Positions 7,320-50,922 of a stretch of 64,000 bases of DNA are shown piece by piece. The notes beneath the pieces were generated by a model. The model did no database searches, was not told the DNA's origin, and worked only from the letters and a program-made list of their open reading frames with translations. Positions within the stretch are counted from its first letter, which is position 1. Every line of letters begins with the position of its first letter. The DNA lies in the NCBI GenBank assembly GCA_947089145.1, contig CAMUJH010000022.1, positions 1 to 64,000 on the forward strand. The letters run 5' to 3'. Both the position numbers and the translations under genes were made by a program. The DNA is from an uncultured Hungatella sp. (lineage in GTDB: Bacteria > Bacillota > Clostridia > Lachnospirales > Lachnospiraceae).

Positions 7320-7426
7320 TGGTTATAACAAAAAATTATCCGTTTGATCGAGAGGTTTGGCAGCCTGAGGATCTGCTGGACAGAGATATTTTACGGATGG
7401 CTCATGTCAGCATTGTGTTTTCTTAA
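7319..7426 (+). CDS. Possible 35-residue ORF or gene remnant
   Basis: The ATG at 7319 opens a frame that reads KNYPFDREVWQPEDLLDRDI and ends in HVSIVFS and TAA. There is no convincing ribosome site, and the ATG overlaps the -35 box of the divergent cupin promoter. The composition looks protein-like and may be the broken N-terminus of a longer gene. I do not recognise a family. The stretch 7427-7555 after it holds nothing else I can support. Confidence 0.25.
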   Translation: MVITKNYPFDREVWQPEDLLDRDILRMAHVSIVFS

Positions 7427-7555
7427 TGTGATGGATTGGGGTGATTGTATCACAAAACCAGGGGAAGGGGCGGATGGCCTAAAACGGAAAAAGCCACAGG
7501 GATATGATAGAATCAAGAGAAATGGGAGGGCGCAGCCTATCTTTTTGAGGAGGAG

Positions 7556-8332
7556 TTGAAGGACAGGGAGCGCAATTCTTTTCAGGGGATTGGAAGCGGG
7601 CTTCGGGTTTTGACCGCGCTGCTTGGAAGATACAATGGCCATGGCAGATATGAGGAGCTATTCAGGCGGGCAAAGAATGCCAATTTTGACTGCGCCTGCG
7701 GCTATGACCCGGAGGACGGGGTGGATGAAAACTTTGAGAACAACAGCCTGCTGGACTGCATCTATTTATGCCAGGAGATGGATTATAAGGATGTGATGGC
7801 CGAGATGGTGGATGAGTGGAAGCAGGATACAGAAAATGGGCCGGGCCGGGATGGCAGGCTCATTGAGTTTAACCGTTTTCTTGGCAGGGACAGGGAGAAC
7901 GAAGGGCTTTATAAAAAGCAGCTGGAAGAGGCTCTCAGGGCAAAGGACAGCAGGGTGAGGGATATTATTTCCGGATACCGGGATATGATACGGTATTATC
8001 TGCAGACAGGGGATTATGACAGGGGAGTGGCGTATTGTAAGATAGTCATAGAGACGACGGACTATGAAAAGATCCGTACTCTGCGCCTGTTCGGGGATAT
8101 TCTGGAGGAGTGTCTGGAGGTTATCGCCGGTATGGCCTGCAATGGCCATGACCCGGAGGAGGCCTCCGGCTTATGGCGGTGGACAAAGGAGGAGCTGGAG
8201 CGAAAATCCCGGACCAGCTGGTACGGAAACCTGTACACCAAGGGAATCGCTGCGGCGAAGGTGATGGATGAGGCGTATGCCGGGAAACTGGAGAAGGAGT
8301 ATGCAGAGTGGCGGAGAAAGTGCAGGATTTGA
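7556..8332 (+). CDS. Hypothetical helical protein
   Basis: 258 residues from a TTG at 7556 directly after GAGGAGGAG. The frame stays open upstream to a stop at 7508, adding NQEKWEGAAYLFEEE, so the true start is uncertain. Either the TTG is used or this is the C-terminal part of a once longer protein. The sequence is rich in Glu, Arg, Lys and aromatic residues and looks all-helical, possibly with TPR-like pairs (for example LLDCIYLCQEMDYKDVMAEM and YYLQTGDYDRGVAYCKIVIE). There is no signal peptide or membrane segment. I do not recognise the family. It is not clearly linked to its neighbours. Confidence 0.6.
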   Translation: MKDRERNSFQGIGSGLRVLTALLGRYNGHGRYEELFRRAKNANFDCACGYDPEDGVDENFENNSLLDCIYLCQEMDYKDVMAEMVDEWKQDTENGPGRDGRLIEFNRFLGRDRENEGLYKKQLEEALRAKDSRVRDIISGYRDMIRYYLQTGDYDRGVAYCKIVIETTDYEKIRTLRLFGDILEECLEVIAGMACNGHDPEEASGLWRWTKEELERKSRTSWYGNLYTKGIAAAKVMDEAYAGKLEKEYAEWRRKCRI

Positions 8333-8427
8333 GGAGGGAATGAGTCCGGTGACAGGGATCGTAAATGGCGTCGGGAAAATCAGGAGATAAATCAGGGCGG
8401 AAATAAAAAAGAAACGAGGAGGAGACT

Positions 8428-8559
8428 ATGTATCAGAAAAAGTTGGAGCGGGATATCCGCTGTCCCCTGGAGTACGGGTTTGAGATTTCTGGCGGCAAAT
8501 GCATATGCCAAAATGATAATCTGGCAGTGATTATCATTTTGGCATATTTTAATCTGTAG
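8428..8559 (+). pseudogene. Truncated HxlR-family transcriptional regulator
   Basis: A clean GAGGAGGAG ribosome site precedes the ATG at 8428. The first residues, MYQKKLERDIRCPLEYGFEI and then SGGK, match the N-terminus of HxlR-type winged-helix regulators (C..P.EYG...GGKW). After GGK the frame runs directly into an 18-bp inverted repeat and stops at 8557-8559, giving only 43 residues without the winged helix. The regulator is therefore dead, or the short peptide has another use. The convergent gene begins its 3' end 25 bp later. Confidence 0.7.
8503..8551. repeat. 18-bp perfect inverted repeat at the break of the HxlR gene
   Basis: Arms are 8503-8520 (starting ATATGCCAAAATGATAAT) and 8530-8547, with loop CTGGCAGTG. 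The right arm is followed by TTTAATC. It can act as a terminator for either strand. Because it sits exactly where the HxlR protein loses homology, it may be the scar or core of a small mobile palindrome. Confidence 0.75.
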
Positions 8560-8584
8560 GAAGAATAAAAGCTGATTGATTTAA

Positions 8585-8980
8585 TTATTCCGGCAATTCT
8601 ACCGGCTCAAATATGTCGCCCAAGGTTTCCAGGGCAGGAAGTAATTTTGTAACGCCGCATGTAAAGAAAATAATGCGGATCACCTCAAAAATTTCGTCAA
8701 TGGTAGCGCCATTGTCCATGGCAATCTTAGCATGGACTTTCATGGTAGTGTCAGTGCCTGTGGCCATACCGACAGCCATCACAATCAGCTCCCGATACTT
8801 TTTGGGAATGGAAATATCTTTCTTGTTGCAGTTCACATACTGCTGAAGAAACATGTTGATCAGATTTGGATCATTCCCCATTACCTGGTGTGAGGAAAGA
8901 AGGGTGCCCCCGCGGGCTTCCTTTAACTCCTGTAAAATATCCAGGGAGCGCTCCAATTTAGCTGCATCTGTTTGTTTCAT
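8585..8980 (-). CDS. Carboxymuconolactone decarboxylase/AhpD-like protein
   Basis: 131 residues with an AGGGGGAG ribosome site before the ATG at 8980. The CMD fold is recognisable from PKKYRELIVMAVGMATGTDT, then VHAKIAMDNGATIDEIFEVI and FFTCGVTKLLPALE. The AhpD-type CxxC is absent: the positions before the conserved His read TDTTMKVHA. A disulfide-peroxidase role is therefore unlikely, and a decarboxylase-like or unknown role is more probable. It lies 36 bp upstream of the 3' end of the carboxyltransferase gene, on the same strand. It may be the distal gene of that LacI-controlled transcript. Confidence 0.8.
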   Translation of the reverse strand: MKQTDAAKLERSLDILQELKEARGGTLLSSHQVMGNDPNLINMFLQQYVNCNKKDISIPKKYRELIVMAVGMATGTDTTMKVHAKIAMDNGATIDEIFEVIRIIFFTCGVTKLLPALETLGDIFEPVELPE

Positions 8981-9016
8981 ATGATTCTCCCCCTTATTTA
9001 TGTAGATTTTTAATCA

Positions 9017-10414
9017 TTATAAACGGTATTTACAGCGCAGGAAATCCGGCGCGTAGTTTGGGAAAAGAGCATAGGTCAGGATATCCTCTTCTGTCCTTGC
9101 CAGAGAACCCACTTCCGCCCGCGCGGTTTCAAAAACAGGCTCCAGCATATCTCCCGGCCGGGGGAAAGTGGGTTTTTCACCGTTAAGGGCCTTTTCCAGA
9201 AGTTCAGGGGCAATCGGTCCGGGAGGCATTCCGTACATCCCCCGGCAGTACTCTTTTAACTCTTTGCTTACCATGGCATAGCGGTTGCCGGTCAATACGT
9301 TGGTGGTGGCCTGTGCGCCGCACATCTGGCTGGAAGGGGTTGCAAGAGGCGGATAACCCATATCAGCACGCACCCGGGTAACCTCTTCAAGAACTTCCGG
9401 AAGCCGGTCATAAAGCTTCATGGCCGTAAGCTGGCTTTCCAGATTGGAGAGCATACCTCCTGGAACCTGGTGCTGCAGGCAGCCTACATCAACACCTACC
9501 AGTTTCGTCTCAAATTCCGCATATTTTTTTCTCAGCTTCATGAAATCGTCATTGATGGATTTAAACTGTCCCACATCAATTTTAGGGTCTCGGCTGGTTC
9601 CCTTTAATGCGGTAAGAAAGCTTTCAATGGGCGGGTGGGCAGGTCCCATGGACATAGAAGAAACGCATACATCCAGTCCGTCTACCCCGGCTCGGATAGC
9701 TTCCCAGTAAGCCATTTCAGCCATGCCGCCAGTGCAGTGGCAATGAAGATGGACCGGAATCTTCAATGCTTTCTTCAATGCGGAAATCAGATCATAGGCG
9801 GCCTGGGGTGTCATGAGCCCGGCCATATCTTCCACATGCATGAGACTGGCCCCCATCTTTTCCTGTTCCAGCGCGTTTTGTACGAAGACTTCCGTGGTAT
9901 GGAAGGGACTTACATTGTACTGGACAGAGCCCTCTATTTTTTTACCGGCTTTTTTTACGGCGCGGAAAGCAGATTCGCAGTTGCGTAAATCCTGCAAGGC
10001 GTCAAAAATCAGGAAAATATCAATTCCGGCCTCTGCCGCCTTTTCTACAAATTTTTCTACAATATCATCCGGGTACGCTTTATACCCTACGAGATTTTGG
10101 GCGCGAAGGACCATTTTCAGAGGAGTGTGTTTCATATATTTTTTAAATTCCCGCACGCGCTCCCAGGGGTCTTCCTTTAAAAATCGAACCGCCACATCAA
10201 AGGTAGCTCCGCCCCACATTTCCATGCTGTCATATCCAATGGCATCCATGCGGGTTAAAAGCGGAATCATGTCAGCCGTGGTCATACGTGTAGCAAACAA
10301 AGACTGCTGGCCGTCACGAAATTCCACGCTGTTGAATTTTAATGGCGTGCCGGAGCCGGCAAAGTCGGCGGCGCCAACGCCTTCCGGAAGCCTGGGCTTT
10401 CTATTCCAGAACAT
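9017..10414 (-). CDS. Oxaloacetate decarboxylase alpha / pyruvate carboxylase B-type carboxyltransferase subunit
   Basis: 465 residues from the ATG at 10414 (MFWNRKPRLPEG...), chosen because GGAAAGGAAGG precedes it. A longer reading to 10555 would run through the promoter and operator. The carboxyltransferase TIM barrel is clear: FNSVEFRDGQQSLFATRMTT at the N-terminus, EMWGGATFDVAVRFL, and the metal-binding VHLHCHCTGG. The C-terminal conserved domain ends at CKYRL, and no biotinyl (AMKM) domain follows, so a separate biotin carrier would be needed for biotin-dependent chemistry. Family members transfer CO2 between oxaloacetate or methylmalonyl-CoA and biotin. In this context it probably links oxaloacetate and pyruvate. 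It is divergent from the metallo-hydrolase gene and shares its operator region. Confidence 0.85.
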   Translation of the reverse strand: MFWNRKPRLPEGVGAADFAGSGTPLKFNSVEFRDGQQSLFATRMTTADMIPLLTRMDAIGYDSMEMWGGATFDVAVRFLKEDPWERVREFKKYMKHTPLKMVLRAQNLVGYKAYPDDIVEKFVEKAAEAGIDIFLIFDALQDLRNCESAFRAVKKAGKKIEGSVQYNVSPFHTTEVFVQNALEQEKMGASLMHVEDMAGLMTPQAAYDLISALKKALKIPVHLHCHCTGGMAEMAYWEAIRAGVDGLDVCVSSMSMGPAHPPIESFLTALKGTSRDPKIDVGQFKSINDDFMKLRKKYAEFETKLVGVDVGCLQHQVPGGMLSNLESQLTAMKLYDRLPEVLEEVTRVRADMGYPPLATPSSQMCGAQATTNVLTGNRYAMVSKELKEYCRGMYGMPPGPIAPELLEKALNGEKPTFPRPGDMLEPVFETARAEVGSLARTEEDILTYALFPNYAPDFLRCKYRL

Positions 10415-10572
10415 AATAAGCCTTCCTTTCCTTTTATTTACGGCTATGTGATTGCGAAAGTCAGAATATTCGTCAAGTTTTTCATTTTCAGCTTCGCCAA
10501 TGCCTATATTTACAGTTAGTTTAGAGATATGGAAGTTTTGGGAAAAAAGGTGCAATTTGCTTCCATGTAAAA

Positions 10573-10638
10573 TAAACGTTAAACTATATCGTTAAACTTA
10601 TTTATATAAACAATACTATATGAAATAAAATTTGTCAA
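10573..10638 (-). promoter_or_regulatory. Promoter of the carboxyltransferase gene with operator A
   Basis: On the minus strand, TTGACA (10633-10638), spacer 17, TATTGT (10610-10615). Just downstream lies operator A (10573-10600), built of CGTTAAACT at 10577-10585 and again at 10590-10598, 13 bp apart. The same 13-bp-spaced element recurs before the PFOR operon (12983-13010). Confidence 0.8.
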
Positions 10639-10656
10639 GAAAAGATTAAAAATTGG

Positions 10657-10715
10657 TTGATAATTATTTTATCAGGTTGTATTATATAGTATAACGTTGT
10701 ACAAATACGTTTTAC
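10657..10715 (+). promoter_or_regulatory. Promoter of the metallo-hydrolase gene with operator B
   Basis: TTGATA (10657-10662), spacer 17, TATTAT (10680-10685). Directly downstream, ACGTT at 10694-10698 and at 10707-10711 are again 13 bp apart. The reverse complement of the second half, AGTAAAACGTA, is repeated in the PFOR promoter. Confidence 0.75.
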
Positions 10716-37176: not shown

Positions 37177-38082
37177 ATGATCATATCACCCAAATACGAC
37201 GATTTTGTAAAGGAAATGTTTCGCAATGAAACCGTGAGGAGGCACTTTATCGGCGATGTCCTGGGAATCGGACAGGAGAAGATCCGCTCCGTGCAGCTAA
37301 AGAATACGTTTCTTGGTAGACGGCGACGGAGGCAGAAGCTGGGCATACTGGACATTGTGGTGGAGCTTAATGACAGCGAGGTGATAGACATTGAGCTGCA
37401 GGTGAAGATGGTCAGGGAATGGGATAAGAGGGAGTTGTTTTATCTGGCCAAGCTGTACACAGAGGATATCCGGGCGGGAATGGATTACAGGCGGCTCAAA
37501 AGGTGCATCGGGATCAGCATTCTGGACTTTAACCTGACAGACCGGGAAGATTACCACAGCGTATACCGGTTGAGAGATGAGAAGGGCAATGAGTTTACGG
37601 ATCTTCTGGAGATCCATGTGATCGAGTTAAAGAAGGAAGTGACCGGCCAGGGGGAAGTGGAGGACTGGATACGATTTTTTAATATAGAGACGGAGGCGGA
37701 TATGAAGATGATAAAATCAAAGACGAAAAATCCCGGGATCGTGGAAGCCATCAATACGCTGCGGGTCATGAGTATGAACAGCGGCCTGCGCTTTCGGTAC
37801 GAGGCGTACTTAAAGCGTGTGGCGGATGAGAGAGCACGGGAAGGATATGTGTGGGATCAGGGGAGAGAGGCAGGGCTGAAAGAGGGAATCGAAGCGGGAA
37901 AGGCTGAAGGAAAAAACGAAGGAATAGCCACGGGAAAGGCTGAAGGCGAGCAGCTTCTGGCAGATCTGATGGAGCGTCTGATTTCTGATAACCGGATGGA
38001 GGATGTGAAGCTGGCAGTCAGAGATGAACAGGCGCGGAGGCGGCTTTACAGAGAATATGGAATAGAAGATACCGGGAAGTGA
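37177..38082 (+). CDS. Rpn-family PD-(D/E)XK nuclease (putative transposase-like)
   Basis: 301 residues with a GGAAAGGAGAGAGG ribosome site. The start SPKYDDFVKEMFRNETVRRH and the core LGILDIVVELNDSEVIDIEL followed by QVKM give the PD-(D/E)XK catalytic set (D, then E-x-Q). FYLAKLYTEDIRAGMDYRRL and CIGISILDF are also characteristic of the recombination-promoting nuclease family. The C-terminus has a Gly-Lys-Glu-rich repeat (GLKEGIEAGKAEGKNEGIAT, then GKAEGEQ), as is usual in these proteins. Members are widespread, variable, and promote recombination in E. coli. No flanking inverted repeats are seen. A second, broken Rpn copy lies at 60921-61157. Confidence 0.88.
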   Translation: MIISPKYDDFVKEMFRNETVRRHFIGDVLGIGQEKIRSVQLKNTFLGRRRRRQKLGILDIVVELNDSEVIDIELQVKMVREWDKRELFYLAKLYTEDIRAGMDYRRLKRCIGISILDFNLTDREDYHSVYRLRDEKGNEFTDLLEIHVIELKKEVTGQGEVEDWIRFFNIETEADMKMIKSKTKNPGIVEAINTLRVMSMNSGLRFRYEAYLKRVADERAREGYVWDQGREAGLKEGIEAGKAEGKNEGIATGKAEGEQLLADLMERLISDNRMEDVKLAVRDEQARRRLYREYGIEDTGK

Positions 38083-44040: not shown

Positions 44041-44389
44041 TGACATTGAGCCAGGAGGTGGCCCTTTCCGCATACGGCAGCATCGACGTGTCTTCCCAGC
44101 TCATGCGGGAAACCCCCATTGATACGCCATCCGGCCAGGTGGTCCGTCTCTCTGACGTGACCTCTTTTCTAAACCTGGTGCGGGAGGATGCGGACACGCT
44201 CAGTCGCTACAACGGGGAGGAGAGCTATCTTCTGGGCTTCCGCTGATTTTTGGAGGAGACGGCGGGATGGCCATGATGAAGGAGATGGCTTACATCATTG
44301 TGGGAGGTCTGGCTGCCTCCACGGTTCTGGCTATGTTTCTGATGCCGGCTTTCTACCTTCTGATGAAGGGGGAGCGGTTTGAGAGATGA
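44041..44389 (+). pseudogene. Fragments of an RND/MMPL-type efflux permease
   Basis: One piece reads TPIDTPSGQVVRLSDVTSFL, then LVREDADTLSRYNGEE (about 44041-44246). After a frame change, a second piece reads GDGGMAMMKEMAYIIVGGLA, then STVLAMFLMPAFYLLMKGER to the stop at 44387-44389. Both resemble parts of a resistance-nodulation-division pump, the second being its C-terminal membrane helix. More than 90% of the gene is missing. Confidence 0.7.
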
Positions 44390-44558
44390 AGCTTTAAACA
44401 GCAGGACAGGTATAATTGATTGCAGCAGATCTTGGACGCCGTTTTTGCAGATAAATTTTACAGATAAATGACAAAAATTTCAGAGAAAATATAAGAACAG
44501 ATATGGTATTGGCGTAAAAACTATGGTATACTTGGTTCAAAATGGGGAGCGGGGGAAA

Positions 44559-47500
44559 ATGAACGGGAATCCTTACGTTACATATATCGAAAAGAAATAT
44601 ATCCAGAAATGCGAGAAAAACGGCAATAGCGCAGATGTTAAATCTGATTGGGAGAGCAAAAAACTCCTTTACAGAGAGATGACCAAAACCACCATCTATG
44701 AATTTATGAATTACAGCATGCATGACGAATCACACTCCATACATATTCTGGAAAGCATCGAGATGGTTTTGGGAAGAAAGCGGATTAATGATTTAAGCCG
44801 AAGCGATCTGTGGCTTTTACTGAATGCTGCCTATGCCCATGATATCGGGATGGTGACGGAATATAAAAAACTGGAAGATTTATGGTCCGATGAGGCATTC
44901 CGGAATTACTTAAAAGAAACCAGGGATTCGCTTAATAAGGATGATGCAGCCGCTGCGAAGTTCTATGCGCTGCTTAATGATTTTTTGCTTAACGGTATGG
45001 AGAAGGGGGCTTCTCAGTCTCCTTCAGGCATTAATTTTAAAATGCATGACGCATGGCCCCTGGAGTTTCGGAAAGATATAACGCTGTTAATGTCCAATTT
45101 TATCAGAGACAGGCATGGAGAGCTTACTAAGGAGTTTTTTGAAAATCCTGAAAAAACCAATAACTACATTGTAGAAGACAGGCTGTACAGGCTGATTGGC
45201 CGCATTGCCAGCTGCCATACCCTGGGGCAGAGCAGCGTGGAAGAACTTCCATGCAGGTGCAAAGGATTCGGCACGGATTGGATGCATCCTCGTTTTGTTG
45301 CCATGCTTCTTCGGCTTGGAGATTTGCTGGATCTGGATAATAACCGCTTCGATGTCTTCAGCATGAAACATTTTGGCGTGCTGCCGGATATAAGCGTAGC
45401 TCATTACAAAAAACATAAATCAATCACCCATTTTCATATTGAGCCTAAGGTTATTGAGATTACTGCAAAGTCATTTGACTTTGAAGTTTGTAAACTGAAT
45501 CAGATATGGTTCCAGTATATACGAGACGATATTAAGTATCTGATTACTCACTGGAGCATCGTGGCGCCTAAAAAGCTGAAGGGGTGCCTTCTTGGTTTGC
45601 CAAAACTGGAGGTGTTCCATGGAAATTCCCGTTTTACGGAGAGCTCCATGACAAGATTTGTTCTGGAGAAACAAAAGCTTTTGCGGCTGTTTACCGGCAA
45701 CAATCTTTACTCCAGCAACCTGGCCTTTATCCGGGAATACATGCAGAATGCTTTTGACGCCAGCAGGCTCCAATTATTTTATGAGCTTCTGCCCATAGAG
45801 AAGGATTCCCATAAAACCAGTTTTTCGTCAAAAGCGGAGGTTTATCTGCAGAATCCGGGAGTGGATTTGAAAAGGCTGAAACCCTTCGATATAAACAGTA
45901 TGGCCTATGAGACTTTTGCGATCTTGATTACCATAAAGCCGGACCCTAAAGATTCCAGCAAATTTATTCTGCAGATCACAGACAGGGGAATCGGGATTGA
46001 CAAGGAAGGGATCGAGGCTATTGTCAATGTGGGAAGCGGATGGGAAAGGCGAAATAGCCACAAAAAAGCCATAAAGGAAATGAGAGAGTGGATGCGCCCT
46101 ACTGGCGGATTCGGAATTGGCCTGCAATCCGCTTACCTGATTACAGATGAAGCCCGCCTGTATACCAAGTCTTCTTTTGAGGAAGGCCGCTGCATTATTC
46201 TGTCTGAATATTCTAACGAAAAAAACGTGCTGGTGGAGATTGACAGGGATAATCTTTACAGAGGGACTACCGCTCAATTCAGGATTGATTTTAACAGGAT
46301 GCAGCAGCCCTCTATTATAGAGCAGTTTTTCAAGAAAAATCTGGATGATTTCGACGCTTTCAGTCTGAAAGGGAAATTGGAGATCGTGTACCACATTATT
46401 GCGGAATATGTCCGCAAAACGTTTCCCATGTCTTTATTTCCCATAAAAATGCAGCTGCTGAATCAAGAGGGGTATGAGGAGATACCCAAAAATACCATCG
46501 TTGGCCCCTATCTCTGCATTAGGGGAGAGACGGGAAAAGGGAAGGTTCCTCTGTTTCATAATTGCGGGACACAGAATTCCGCAGATGCGCAGTTATCCCA
46601 ACTGGAAAAAGTGTTTTATGATTTTATCAGGGAGGAACATGATACGCCTGGAAAAGTGTATTTTTACCTCTATGGGGAGAGGCTGTATGTATGGGATGAC
46701 GGCCCCCAGATTCTTTATAGTTTTTCACTGCCAGCAGGAAGAGAGAGCGTGAATGTTCTGGCAAACTATAAAAATGTCCTGGTGCAGGACAATACGAGAA
46801 ACGTTTTATTAAGCAATACAAAACATCCGGAGTTTCTGGAGACGGCTTATGACGTTATGGGTCTGATCGTAGAAAAATGTCTGGTGGTAAGCCGGAATAA
46901 GTTTCGGGAAGATGTCTTGGCCCAGGAGCAGATCCGGATAGATCTATTTACCAGGGCCTATGCGCATTTGCTTTTGTATATGGCGCTAAGCAATAATACC
47001 AGCATTCCCGGGGATATTCTGCTAAATTCCTGTATCATTGAATCAGACAAGGAGCTGGTGAGGAAGGTTGCAAAAGCATGCAGGACGGTTCTGTCTGATC
47101 AGACTTACACATCATGGGGGTTTGATTTTGGCGAGGGAAAATGGGAGATGGATCGGAGGGTAACATCGGCGCTTACCATGCTGGAAAACCTGCCTGAAAC
47201 AGTTTTGATGGCTGAGATAGGAAATCCGGAGGAGAAGAGTGCGCAGTTTGAATATGGCTGCGGGACGCTTTCAGAGACAAACGGCATCTGCCTGCAGCCC
47301 AGGGATATGAGTTCCAGCCAGACAGGGCCTATACTGGATCAGCGTACAGTGATTGTCAGTGACAAGAAGATCTATGAGATTTTGGCCAAATACAGCAAGA
47401 AAGAGCCGGAGATTTTTGTGGATTTTTTTAGAACGATGACCAAGCAGCCTATGAAGGCATATATTATAAATACGGAGTCAGAGAAGATTAGCGGTTTAAT

Positions 47501-47963
47501 ACAGGGACAAAAAAGGGATAATAAGTCTTCTTCCCAAGCGAAGAAAGACATTGACCATAAAAATACGTTTAAGCGCAGATACATGGCGGTTGATTTACAG
47601 GAGGACGACCCGCTGTCCCCTCTCATGGTGTCCAGAAGGCCCTTTGGATTAGAGGATTCGGAAACATACATTATAAGCCCTTATACCTTTGAGACAGGCA
47701 TGATAATTGCAAAGATGCCGGTTGACGATCAGGCTTTAAAGCGCACAAAACAGCTGATTCGCCTCATAGAACAAGATCCGTCTTATGAAGAGCTTTGCCA
47801 ATGGGTATATTACAACCAAAAACCGGGGCGCAGGAAAAAATATTCCATCTCAGAGATAAAAGAGGCCTATAGAGAATTGATCCGGCGGGATTTGGAGGCA
47901 AGAAGCGGCGGAGAGGATTTATTGGATACTAATAGGCTGCGGATAGGGGGAAGCAGACATTGA
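44559..47963 (+). CDS. HD-domain + HSP90-like (GHKL) ATPase protein
   Basis: 1134 residues from the ATG at 44559 after GCGGGGGAAA. An in-frame ATG at 44523 overlaps a possible -10 box (TATACT 44527-44532) and is less likely. An N-terminal HD-type domain has H55-D56 (SMHDESHSIHILESIEMV) and H94-D95 (AYAHDIGMV). From about residue 380 an HSP90/GHKL ATPase follows: N-box E393..N397 (REYMQNAFDASR), G1 box D475-R-G-I-G479 (ITDRGIGID) and lid G516-GFGIGLQSAYLI. The remaining C-terminal 500 residues are unassigned. There is no signal or membrane segment. This architecture fits chaperone-like ATPases that I associate with bacterial conflict systems. The next two genes are coupled to it. Its true function is unknown. 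Confidence 0.85.
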   Translation: MNGNPYVTYIEKKYIQKCEKNGNSADVKSDWESKKLLYREMTKTTIYEFMNYSMHDESHSIHILESIEMVLGRKRINDLSRSDLWLLLNAAYAHDIGMVTEYKKLEDLWSDEAFRNYLKETRDSLNKDDAAAAKFYALLNDFLLNGMEKGASQSPSGINFKMHDAWPLEFRKDITLLMSNFIRDRHGELTKEFFENPEKTNNYIVEDRLYRLIGRIASCHTLGQSSVEELPCRCKGFGTDWMHPRFVAMLLRLGDLLDLDNNRFDVFSMKHFGVLPDISVAHYKKHKSITHFHIEPKVIEITAKSFDFEVCKLNQIWFQYIRDDIKYLITHWSIVAPKKLKGCLLGLPKLEVFHGNSRFTESSMTRFVLEKQKLLRLFTGNNLYSSNLAFIREYMQNAFDASRLQLFYELLPIEKDSHKTSFSSKAEVYLQNPGVDLKRLKPFDINSMAYETFAILITIKPDPKDSSKFILQITDRGIGIDKEGIEAIVNVGSGWERRNSHKKAIKEMREWMRPTGGFGIGLQSAYLITDEARLYTKSSFEEGRCIILSEYSNEKNVLVEIDRDNLYRGTTAQFRIDFNRMQQPSIIEQFFKKNLDDFDAFSLKGKLEIVYHIIAEYVRKTFPMSLFPIKMQLLNQEGYEEIPKNTIVGPYLCIRGETGKGKVPLFHNCGTQNSADAQLSQLEKVFYDFIREEHDTPGKVYFYLYGERLYVWDDGPQILYSFSLPAGRESVNVLANYKNVLVQDNTRNVLLSNTKHPEFLETAYDVMGLIVEKCLVVSRNKFREDVLAQEQIRIDLFTRAYAHLLLYMALSNNTSIPGDILLNSCIIESDKELVRKVAKACRTVLSDQTYTSWGFDFGEGKWEMDRRVTSALTMLENLPETVLMAEIGNPEEKSAQFEYGCGTLSETNGICLQPRDMSSSQTGPILDQRTVIVSDKKIYEILAKYSKKEPEIFVDFFRTMTKQPMKAYIINTESEKISGLIQGQKRDNKSSSQAKKDIDHKNTFKRRYMAVDLQEDDPLSPLMVSRRPFGLEDSETYIISPYTFETGMIIAKMPVDDQALKRTKQLIRLIEQDPSYEELCQWVYYNQKPGRRKKYSISEIKEAYRELIRRDLEARSGGEDLLDTNRLRIGGSRH

Positions 47964-49720
47964 ACGGCCTGAAACAGGAGGAACAGCCAGACAGCTGGTC
48001 CGATCGATATATAGATTTTTTGAATTCCATATCAGGTAAGACCTATGATTTTTATATTGCGGTTACCAGAAAGGGCTACTATTTTGCGCAGATTCAATGC
48101 AAAAGAGAGTCTTTTGGAGGGAAATCGGACTTTAAAGAGAAGCTAATAAGGGATCGGGACATTTATAAATGTTTTGATCCAAAGATTTTTGCTGATAAAA
48201 AGGTACTGCTGTTTGATGACACTGTCAGCACTGGCGAGACGTTAAGAAAATTGAGGGATTTTCTGTTCCAAAAAACAAATTACAAGATTGAGATCGACAT
48301 AGCCGCTTTTGCGGTTAGCCACGAAGTGCTTAAAAAAAATGAAAATGGATCGCTATTTGGAGACAGCAGCCTGTTTTTTCAATACTCTCTCAGCGAGGAC
48401 GAAATGTCAGAGTTTTCTCTGTATGAGCTCCATCAGATTCATGATCTGATGACGCCTTATGTCATAGATCTGCCCTTGTTTGAAAGTGTTGAGCTGACAG
48501 AGGAACAATTTCGCAATTTGTCGAATATTGCCGGTAGAAACTGGAGCTTTCACGATTATTCTTTTAAACTGCAGAATACAACATATACAAACGGATTTTT
48601 TTTGTATGAGAATTCCGTTATGGAAGAGATTTTTGGCAGCGGACTGCTGGCATGCGTGGTGAAATGCCGCTATAAGCGTTTTGCGGAAAAAGGGATCTGT
48701 AAATATAAAATTGTTTTTACGCCTTTTGTCATGCTGAAAAGCATGCTCTATGAGGATATGCGCAGCTGCCTTCTTAATCTCTATGACAATACGGAATATG
48801 GGGACTTTGTTCGGGGGAAGGCCCCTTCTGCGGAACAGAAGAACAATTTTGTGGGGATCTACAGAGACGTGATCTATAATCTCAGCTATTTTGTGGGAGA
48901 AGTCTTTCGCCAGTATTTTGGGGAAAGGTATGGCGTGTCTTTAACCTGGAATAAAAATCTGACAAAGAATCCGCAAAATGAAATTATGGAAAAAAGCATA
49001 GATAAAATGTTCAAAGATTTTTCTGCTGAGAAGTATTTGAACCGCTTGTACAGATGCCGCTTTTTCTATCAGAGGAAACCTGATATAGAAATTACGCCGT
49101 ATGGGGATACGAAATTCACGGACGTGCGGGATTTTATATTGGGACAGATCGCATTATGGAGGGTCGGGGAACTTGGCAAGCTGGAGAAAGGCGCTTATTT
49201 GCCGGGAGGATATATCCTGTTTGAAAGCATAGAGGATATTATGGCCAGTGAATTTAGCTTTCAAAGCGAAAGGCAATTTGCCCAGTATTTTGCCCGCATT
49301 ATATTGTTAGCTTTGGACTGCAGCGTTATGTCCAACGATCTGATTCTTGAAAATGGAGAGATAAAGCGCGTCTTCCGATATGGAGAGGGAAGCGAAATAT
49401 ATTTTGGATATGACATAACTCTTTTTTACCAGGCCGTCTATGCATACTACAATAACGTGGGAGCGGATAATAAAGCATACCATAGGCATTATGAATCGTT
49501 TATAACGTCGCTGTATAATTACCTTCAGAGCAATAATTATTTTAATGCGGAATATATTTCCCGCATGGCATTTTTGTATTTTGCCAGCTACTTTAATCTG
49601 GAGGGCTCTGTATTGGAGCGGGAGATCCGAAACAAACGGTTTGTTTTAGAAAGTAATGAACAAAAGAATCCGTATTACAGAGCGGTGGGGAACTTTGTTT
49701 CCAACTTAAAATTTGACTAG
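47960..49720 (+). CDS. Large protein with an orphan phosphoribosyltransferase-like domain
   Basis: 586 residues from a TTG at 47960 that overlaps the preceding stop (TTGA). AGGGGGAAG precedes it. The N-terminal 130 residues form a PRTase-like fold: YDFYIAVTRKGYYFAQIQCK and the PRPP-binding loop D86-D87-T-V-S-T-G92 (KKVLLFDDTVSTGETLRK). The remaining 450 residues are aromatic-rich, helical and unassigned (for example EKSIDKMFKDFSAEKYLNRL). A PRTase without a nearby nucleotide pathway, coupled to an HD/HSP90-type ATPase, suggests nucleotide- or RNA-directed chemistry in a defence or repair system. That is inference. Confidence 0.75.
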   Translation: MNGLKQEEQPDSWSDRYIDFLNSISGKTYDFYIAVTRKGYYFAQIQCKRESFGGKSDFKEKLIRDRDIYKCFDPKIFADKKVLLFDDTVSTGETLRKLRDFLFQKTNYKIEIDIAAFAVSHEVLKKNENGSLFGDSSLFFQYSLSEDEMSEFSLYELHQIHDLMTPYVIDLPLFESVELTEEQFRNLSNIAGRNWSFHDYSFKLQNTTYTNGFFLYENSVMEEIFGSGLLACVVKCRYKRFAEKGICKYKIVFTPFVMLKSMLYEDMRSCLLNLYDNTEYGDFVRGKAPSAEQKNNFVGIYRDVIYNLSYFVGEVFRQYFGERYGVSLTWNKNLTKNPQNEIMEKSIDKMFKDFSAEKYLNRLYRCRFFYQRKPDIEITPYGDTKFTDVRDFILGQIALWRVGELGKLEKGAYLPGGYILFESIEDIMASEFSFQSERQFAQYFARIILLALDCSVMSNDLILENGEIKRVFRYGEGSEIYFGYDITLFYQAVYAYYNNVGADNKAYHRHYESFITSLYNYLQSNNYFNAEYISRMAFLYFASYFNLEGSVLEREIRNKRFVLESNEQKNPYYRAVGNFVSNLKFD

Positions 49721-49733
49721 AGAAGAGGGGATC

Positions 49734-50354
49734 ATGGGGCATTGGGAAGCATTGGCTCTATTCATTAGCCATTACATTACGTTGATGAAAAAATTTAAAA
49801 TGCCTGTCTATGCCGAAGGCAGGGCATCTGTCTTAGATAATATCAGAAGCGAGCTTCTGCACAAAATTTTCTTTATTTATTGCCATGTGGGGTTAAAACC
49901 TGCAGTCAAGTGTACCATGCACGACATTGAGACGGCAGCTTTGGCCCAGTTTCACAACGCCTCCGCAGATGATACAGATTACAAAATCAGTTCGTTTACC
50001 ATGACTGTGTGGGGAAAGGAGATGAATAAAGCGGAGATATTCGCTTTGCAGCTGCTCTTAATTATGCAGCTGGAGGCCCCGTATCCGCAATACAGGCAAT
50101 GGCATTACTTTTTAATAGATGTTCCTATTTTCGTTTTGCAGATGAAAGATGAAGATGCAGACAGAAAGGGGAGTAGAAAGATAGATATAGAAAAAGGCAT
50201 GGCGTGTCTGGAAGCAATGATTAAAAAGTATAAGGATATCTTATATCCTGTGGAATATGAAGAATATCGTATGGATTTGGCATGGATAAAAATTATTTAT
50301 GAAAATTTCTTCTACCTTTGGAAATATAATGTAAACCAGGGGGAGATAAATTAA
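49734..50354 (+). CDS. Unknown helical protein, third gene of the HD/HSP90-PRTase operon
   Basis: 206 residues from the ATG at 49734 after AGAAGAGGGGATC. A TTG at 49713 would overlap the previous gene. The sequence is helical and aromatic (MGHWEALALFISHYITLMKK, then NAEQ-poor segments such as AEIFALQLLLIMQLEAPYPQ), with no signal peptide, membrane segment or catalytic motif. I do not recognise a family. The 13-bp gap to the PRTase gene indicates one operon. It may be a structural or regulatory partner. Confidence 0.7.
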   Translation: MGHWEALALFISHYITLMKKFKMPVYAEGRASVLDNIRSELLHKIFFIYCHVGLKPAVKCTMHDIETAALAQFHNASADDTDYKISSFTMTVWGKEMNKAEIFALQLLLIMQLEAPYPQYRQWHYFLIDVPIFVLQMKDEDADRKGSRKIDIEKGMACLEAMIKKYKDILYPVEYEEYRMDLAWIKIIYENFFYLWKYNVNQGEIN

Positions 50355-50382
50355 TTAAACAGGGATAATAAGAGGAGTGGGC

Positions 50383-50922
50383 ATGTTGTACACCATGCAT
50401 TATGATTCTCCCATTGGCAGGCTGCTGCTTGTGGAGAGGGAGGAGGCGCTTGCAGGACTCTGGATGGAAGGCCAGAAATATTTTCTCGGCGCGCTGCGTG
50501 AAAACATGGAAGAAAAAACGGATTCTTTCATTTTAAATAGAACAAAGGATTGGCTTGACCGCTATTTCAGAGGCGAAAAACCGCAGATCAGTGAATTGGC
50601 TCTTGCGCCTGCGGGAAGCGGATTCCGCAAAGCGGTGTGGAAGATCCTCTGTGAGATTCCCTATGGGGAAGTGACGACCTACGGCGAGATATCGCGAAAG
50701 ATTGCAGCCAGCCGGGGCATTGACAGAATGTCGGCCCAGGCTGTCGGCGGAGCAGTAGGCCATAATCCGATCTCCATCATTATTCCCTGCCATCGCGTAG
50801 TGGGAAGCAGCGGAAGCCTGACCGGGTACGCGGGAGGCCTGCAGAGAAAAGTCAGGCTGCTTACCCTGGAAGGAGTCAATATGGAAAACCTGTTCGTTCC
50901 CGCAAAAGGGACGGCGCTGTAA
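50383..50922 (+). CDS. ogt: Methylated-DNA-protein-cysteine S-methyltransferase
   Basis: 179 residues from the ATG at 50383 after AAGAGGAG. A GTG at 50377 is too close to that site. The protein removes O6-alkyl groups from guanine by transfer to its own cysteine. Active site C136 lies in IIIPCHRVVGSSG, and the DNA-binding helix region reads EIPYGEVTTYGEISRKI. The N-terminal LYTMHYDSPIGRLLLVERE is typical of Ogt. It stands 28 bp after the HD/HSP90-PRTase operon and may share its transcript. A strong terminator follows. Confidence 0.93.
   Translation: MLYTMHYDSPIGRLLLVEREEALAGLWMEGQKYFLGALRENMEEKTDSFILNRTKDWLDRYFRGEKPQISELALAPAGSGFRKAVWKILCEIPYGEVTTYGEISRKIAASRGIDRMSAQAVGGAVGHNPISIIIPCHRVVGSSGSLTGYAGGLQRKVRLLTLEGVNMENLFVPAKGTAL

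Follow-up and report, generated by a model that had tools for sequence, protein, structure and literature searches.

We analyzed a 64,000-nucleotide stretch of DNA (hereafter the window) from an uncultured Hungatella sp. within the Lachnospiraceae (GenBank assembly GCA_947089145.1, contig CAMUJH010000022.1, positions 1 to 64,000), which comprises most of a 65,426-bp contig within a 4.46-Mb draft genome. The window encodes an operon of three same-strand open reading frames (ORFs), denoted here as W1, W2, and W3, all of which are open at the coordinates listed in Table 1. On balance, W1-W2-W3 probably represents a little-studied defense system directed against phages or other invading DNA and of the HD-CE/HSP90 kind, in which an HSP90-type switch would control an attack on nucleotides by an HD-CE domain. 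We favor a role in defense because homologs of W1 occur at the gpA-gpQ spot of P2-like prophages, near type I specificity genes, and near putatively SLATT-like DUF4231 genes. The genes, their domains, the conserved active-site and ATPase residues, the W1-W2 linkage in one clade, and the surroundings of W1 homologs were directly observed, whereas defense function, catalysis, substrate, trigger, and what W2 and W3 do are inferred.

An earlier prediction made from the sequence alone (hereafter the original prediction) had described three translationally coupled genes separated by a TTGA overlap and a 13-bp gap, the first of which joins an HD-type domain to a complete GHKL/HSP90 ATPase site; both the layout and the two sites were confirmed. 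W1 matches the Pfam family HD-CE (PF24391) with 148.6 bits against a gathering cut-off of 27 (E 3.6e-43), a cut-off also passed by the W1 homologs of loci L118 and L119. Phylogenetic reconstruction of 93 W1 homologs (a quick type of tree without bootstrap, from which five duplicate loci were dropped) placed the window in one clade (SH-aLRT 100) with L118 (an uncultured Bacteroides metagenome-assembled genome, MAG), L119 (a Butyrivibrio MAG), L120 (a Firmicutes MAG), L125 (a Clostridiales MAG), and L121. W1 homologs in this clade are 28–38% identical to W1 of the window. Nonetheless identical in 6/6 clade members are H55, D56, H59, H94, D95, R183, H186, H220, H243, D255, and D258 and, in the ATPase region, E393, N397, D475, G477, G479, G519, G521, and Q523. 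As judged from sequence, the individual metal ligands would be among H55, D56, H59, H94, D95, H220, D255, and D258. In an alignment of 12 homologs from several phyla, H94, D95, E393, N397, D475, G477, G479, G519, and G521 are invariant, and H55 and D56 are nearly so, with one row (L087) being without an N-terminus. The invariance of HD and ATPase residues indicates that the W1 family keeps both sites.

The ATPase region of W1 matches the NCBIfam HSP90 family (E 2.7e-12), the PDB matches listed for W1 are N-domains of the HSP90 family (best E 4e-6), and the N box, DxGxG, and GxGxG-type motifs of GHKL proteins are all present. Pfam HATPase models scored below cut-off (16.6 vs. 26.4 and 15.2 vs. 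25 bits). HSP90-like ATPases are known chiefly for their work as chaperones. Assignment of W1 as an HtpG chaperone was rejected because the match is restricted to the ATPase region and falls far under the whole-protein cut-offs of NCBIfam HSP90 models (46 vs. 455 and 27.2 vs. 371 bits).

We propose that the HSP90-like ATPase of W1 would function as an ATP-dependent switch or clamp whose state shifts once infection is sensed, turning on the fused HD-CE phosphohydrolase. The active HD-CE domain would then attack nucleotides and thereby deplete the pool, arrest growth, or cause abortive infection. W2 would be a partner with a phosphoribosyltransferase (PRTase) fold and with a tail that docks on W1; it would either take part in attacking nucleotides or sense a phosphoribosyl pyrophosphate (PRPP) or nucleotide signal. 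W3 may be a small accessory subunit. A different substrate for HD-CE, namely nucleic acid or a cyclic nucleotide signal instead of free nucleotides, would be consistent with the varied phosphohydrolase substrates of HD domains in general and with the match of W1 to the HD part of PADLOC RT_UG24 (2.8e-13, residues 63–307). Such a substrate is distinctly unlikely, since Pfam, NCBIfam, and PADLOC recognized no nucleic-acid-binding domain in W1-W3.

The genomic context of W1 homologs is what points to defense. The strongest single pointer for the W1 family is placement in the gpA-gpQ interval, a part of P2-like phages that Rousset et al. (PMC9122126) describe as an anti-phage hotspot. On two IMG/VR contigs identified as P2-like prophages (L200 and L202), a W1 homolog lies between the gpA-type nicking and gpQ-type portal genes; searches with the homolog at this spot matched nothing in the DNA of E. 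coli genomes and, among phages, a single fragmentary record. In total, W1 homologs were identified in four plasmid records and on five IMG/VR contigs, including one (L201) that encodes a protein identical to that of a Cellvibrio locus (L185).

Just upstream, the W1 homolog of L118 is preceded by a DUF4231 gene (L118:75-722), which lies 34 bp before it, and by a TIR gene resembling ThsB of Thoeris (PADLOC 1.4e-67). DUF4231 genes were identified next to W1 homologs in eight distinct loci (L118, L122, L137, L175, L190, L191, L195, and L095), on the same strand as the W1 homolog and on several branches of the tree. The 905 other ORFs of ≥100 aa in 92 loci, of which 309 lie within two ORFs of a W1 homolog, include eight DUF4231 genes, and all of these (8/8) lie within that distance (hypergeometric P 1.7e-4, with related loci counted as independent). 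Four other DUF4231 members were scanned for SLATT_1, with one match over the Pfam cut-off and two weaker matches, which is consistent with DUF4231 being SLATT-like. DUF4231 is named here as a candidate for the standard effector of the HD-CE-HSP90 family; none was recognized beside W1 of the window. Separately, a DUF4231 gene was observed beside a stand-alone HD-CE gene in L116.

The 106 ORFs nearest to W1 homologs included at least four type I specificity subunits, at least four DUF4231 proteins, at least three Fic proteins, and at least two integrases (among 25 of 79 families). At a threshold of 1e-10, PADLOC matched 183 families in these 106 ORFs and 31 in 94 ORFs at a distance of >5 kb, figures that are counts of models and of which the 183 is inflated by specificity subunits that each match dozens of models. 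In support of the original prediction, a defense-type setting was found for W1 homologs and for L118, and not for the window itself. That the three genes serve in cellular stress or nucleotide regulation instead of defense is quite improbable. Such a role would agree with the lack of a recognized defense gene beside the operon in the window, with the frequent regulation of nucleotide genes by PRTase-fold proteins, and with the presence of PyrR among the matches of W2. It agrees poorly with the patchy spread of W1 homologs (2/61 genomes at E <1e-40), with their carriage by plasmids and prophages, and with the company that they keep with DUF4231, ThsB, and specificity subunits.

The original prediction of a PRPP loop and a tail of about 450 residues in W2 was also substantiated, with D86, D87, and G92 of the loop invariant across five homologs. 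A profile of the W2 family matched hypoxanthine PRTases and other type I PRTases in the PDB (best 1.6e-4). These matches, together with the loop (VLLFDDTVSTGETL), suggest that the first ~125 residues of W2 comprise a PRTase-like domain. Scores for Pfam Pribosyltran (20.3 bits, cut-off 26.3) and DUF7683 (21.8 bits, cut-off 27) were below cut-off. Assignment of W2 to PRTase-CE (PF24390) was rejected, as W2 had no match at E 1 and the source genome had none at 0.001; the W2 homolog of L118 scored 19.2 bits against this family (cut-off 27), as unrelated PRTases do.

A PRTase in an operon of this kind could itself be a toxic effector, with W1 either restraining it or mediating its activation and the HD domain of W1 serving in signaling or self-limitation. 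PADLOC matches of the W2 homolog of L118 to PRTase_III-A (1.6e-4), of that of L119 to ShosT (0.0078), and of W2 of the window to ShosT (0.028) would fit such a role, and PRTases, which are proposed effectors of type III-A retrons and shosTA-type pairs, are called probable effectors in two sources (PMC9122126; PMC12548924). However, the matches are weak, and a PRPP loop is a feature of all type I PRTases. Moreover, the position just ahead of the loop glycine carries T in the window and in L118 (TG), whereas L119, L120, and L125 have N, K, and E there (NG, KG, and EG, respectively), a variation that speaks against ordinary PRPP chemistry for the family as a whole. We regard a role of W2 as the toxic effector as rather unlikely, and since the T is replaced in 3/5 homologs, PRTase catalysis is doubtful for part of the W2 family. 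Another tentative and unlikely possibility is that W2 is a PRPP or nucleotide sensor, the loop of which has drifted from catalysis in most homologs and the tail of which, seated on the clamp, would free the HD-CE hydrolase as phage replication disturbs the pool. If so, the W1-W2 clade would be a distinct, two-sided nucleotide defense, reading and destroying the same pool.

Two further PRTase-like genes were observed with the W2 profile. One (36 bits), in the same genome as the window, encodes a 600-aa protein (L224:6835-8637, minus strand; about 100834-102636 of contig C1) and is flanked by genes for 293-aa and 316-aa proteins with no Pfam family above cut-off; these genes are possibly another such system. 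The other (38 bits, with strong composition bias), from a genome of the same family (L223:6326-9592, minus strand), lies among glycosyltransferase-like genes and encodes 1088 aa that begin with a PRTase-like domain.

HD-CE domains above cut-off were detected in 37 of 397 genomes of the same family and 17 of 398 genomes of the phylum. A single-sequence W1 search of the genome contig collection returned no match; scanning of the contigs with a W1 alignment returned 179 relatives, and the 80 best of them were retained and inspected. Homologs of W2 or W3 were not detected at 1e-3 in any of the 40 loci first examined (W1-type, HD-CE, or plasmid), and linkage between W1 and W2 showed up only among the closest relatives of W1. 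Specifically, a W2 homolog adjoins the W1 homolog in L118, L119, L120, and L125 (phmmer 5.6e-89, 5.2e-23, 5.4e-24, and 1.4e-17, with 37, 25, 24, and 23% identity to W2 of the window, respectively). The clade therefore includes a W2 homolog beside W1 in 5/6 members; the remaining member, L121, cannot be judged because its contig holds 236 bp ahead of the W1 gene and breaks off within that gene. Among the 87 rows outside the clade, 57 of which had ≥2.3 kb of sequence on each side, none had a W2 homolog at E 0.01, and the nearest match to the W2 profile (L191, E 0.015) was not counted. Confinement of the linkage to one clade implies that it had one origin rather than several.

The order of genes varies within the clade: W1-W2-W3 in the window and L118, W2-third gene-W1 in L119 and L125, and W2-W1 in L120. 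This indicates that W1-W2 linkage outlived rearrangement. Its persistence through rearrangement and sequence divergence in turn suggests that W1 and W2 act jointly. Only in L118 are the same three genes in the same order, with identities to the window of 38% (W1), 37% (W2), and 26% (W3), a three-gene match that exceeds chance. The W3 homolog of L118 (E 0.0043) occupies the same place after the same 13-bp gap. As anticipated, W3 itself is without a known family, with no match at E 0.1 or better. The third gene of L119 scored 22.4 against W3, above all 300 control ORFs (maximum 20.5), with an hhalign probability of 3.3%. In L125, two short overlapping ORFs at the place of W3 had no detectable likeness to it and did not beat controls, and L120 had no third gene. 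Since W3 is clear only in L118, weak in L119, and absent from L120, it is likely accessory and not a fixed member. Thus, the co-occurrence of genes on which the original prediction turned holds for W1 and W2 in the clade, whereas the full set is clear only in L118 and weak in L119. MAG contigs may be mis-binned, above all that of L118 (9.1 kb), and the W1 homolog of L119 is divided over two overlapping frames.

Searches by tblastn with W2 returned no match in plasmids or phages, searches with the single sequence or the alignment identified no W2 relatives in viral contigs, and no W3 relatives were identified in plasmids. Searching 391 genomes of the class with W2 recovered its own locus and three matches (3.0e-4 to 9.3e-4). 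With the W2 profile, 72 matches at 0.001 were recovered from the 397 family genomes, where the window's own locus scored 777 bits and the next best 44.6; judging from their coordinates, the others are nearly all short matches to the PRPP loops of other PRTases. Two side observations concern HD-CE and W1 homologs: one contig carries tandem HD-CE genes (L086:4148-7264 and 7370-10714, minus strand), and a genome of the same genus encodes a distant W1 homolog (L018:4481-7666, plus strand) without W2, amid genes that by eye are recombinase-like.

Several observations weigh against the interpretation of W1-W2-W3 as a joint system for defense. The defense context belongs to W1 homologs and to L118; the window shows the remnant of a pump gene, a PD-(D/E)XK transposase-type gene, and ordinary genes. 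Numerous ordinary metabolic genes are also found among the nearest neighbors of W1 homologs, the distant ORFs used as a control themselves contain defense matches (the 31 families), and two of the loci treated as independent in the DUF4231 comparison (L191 and L195) are close relatives. With regard to W2, ortholog-level matches were limited to the window's own locus among the 397 same-family genomes, and the W1-W2 clade is small, with six rows of which one is cut short. Finally, W1 homologs are mostly without W2 (0/87 other rows), and W2 is therefore not needed for the W1 design.

The claim that the system is undescribed does not wholly hold because its main domain is a curated Pfam family, as is PRTase-CE. 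Nicastro et al. in 2023 reportedly named HD-CE and PRTase-CE and predicted that HSP90-related modules are switches of nucleotide-targeting effectors. The general HD-CE/HSP90 design is therefore not new, given that Pfam lists HD-CE by name and that its coupling to HSP90 had reportedly been predicted. What may be new is the W1-W2 clade, with its non-PRTase-CE PRTase partner, together with W3. No published account of this combination was found, although a literature search cannot show that none exists.

W1 shares with HD-CE systems an HD-CE domain well over cut-off that is coupled to an HSP90-type module, a coupling reportedly predicted for such systems, whereas its partner W2 is not PRTase-CE by Pfam. 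Like PRTase-CE and the PRTase of type III-A retrons, W2 has a type I PRTase fold and a PRPP loop in a defense-like operon; it differs in having no PRTase-CE match, in its 450-residue tail, and in that no reverse transcriptase was recognized in Pfam scans of W1-W3 and the neighbors scanned (some window ORFs and retron RNA were not searched). In Shedu with a GHKL domain (VcSduA), a GHKL ATPase is likewise coupled to an effector in a single protein, and the ATPase gates a defense nuclease, with E27A abolishing protection (PMC12137116); this effector, however, is a PD-(D/E)XK nuclease rather than an HD domain, and there is no PRTase partner. The account of Clover (PMC12265719) describes an HD deoxynucleoside triphosphatase, CloA, with a nucleotidyltransferase, CloB, and thus, as proposed for W1, an HD-type nucleotide hydrolase as a defense effector with a regulatory partner. 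Clover differs in lacking an HSP90-like ATPase and in its regulator being a nucleotidyltransferase, a distinction from W1 drawn by description and not by sequence. In DprA-PRTase and shosTA pairs, the PRTase is a probable effector (PMC9122126), as considered above for W2, but the partner is DprA-like instead of an HD-HSP90 protein and the sequence match to W2 is marginal. Lastly, DefensePredictor (PMC13092281) includes a PRTase in a validated system and an HATPase in a predicted one, which may or may not be related to W1 or W2.

If the HSP90-like ATPase is an ATP switch of an immune protein, as are STAND and GTPase modules, then W1-W2 would be a compact test case, with sensor, switch, and effector in one 1134-residue chain plus a linked partner. 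The system could also tell whether PRTase-fold proteins in defense operons are enzymes or ligand sensors.

Table 1. Coordinates of the W1-W2-W3 operon, its domains and motifs, and adjacent features in the window.
Feature	Positions	Strand	Evidence or remark
W1: HD-CE, HSP90-like (GHKL) ATPase, and unassigned C-terminal half, 1134 aa	44559..47963	+	
HD-CE domain of W1 (PF24391)	44709..45527	+	148.6 bits, cut-off 27; 4.7e-43 at these coordinates
HSP90-like ATPase region of W1 (E393..N397, D475xGxG, FGIGLQS)	45699..46277	+	NCBIfam, PDB, invariant motifs
TTGA overlap of W1 stop and W2 TTG start	47960..47963	+	
W2, 586 aa: N-terminal domain like type I PRTases, then an unassigned tail of ~450 residues	47960..49720	+	
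PRPP-binding loop of W2, VLLFDDTVSTGETL, residues 82–95	48203..48244	+	
W3: third gene of the operon, protein without recognized family	49734..50354	+	Best family match E 0.15
C-terminal remnant of AcrB-type pump gene, outside the system	44267..44389	+	ACR_tran 991–1020, 20.0 bits vs. cut-off 28
O6-methylguanine-DNA methyltransferase gene, probably not a member	50377..50922	+	Pfam; 22 bp after W3

W1 begins at ATG 44559 and stops at TGA 47961-47963, with an alternative in-frame ATG upstream at 44523 that would add 12 residues. W2 begins at TTG 47960 and stops at TAG 49718-49720, and W3 begins at ATG 49734, 13 bp past the W2 stop, a start chosen over TTG 49713 because the L118 homolog begins at about that position. 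The original prediction that no metabolic gene is near was loose, given that the methyltransferase gene starts 22 bp past W3 and is followed by LysR- and Tct-type genes (assigned by eye). Likewise, its description of the interval as decayed is borne out on the upstream side, by the AcrB-type remnant, and not on the downstream side. Membership of the methyltransferase in the operon was rejected, as homologs are widespread in the genus (24/26 genomes) and none was seen behind the W3 homolog in L118. Gene order around the methyltransferase was not conserved among nine loci of the same genus (matches of >50 residues compared), and therefore no empty site could be defined for the operon. No tRNA genes were found within the window. 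Upstream of the operon, the window encodes a transposase-type gene of the PD-(D/E)XK nuclease family (positions 37177-38082, plus strand; PF12784, 2.8e-40).

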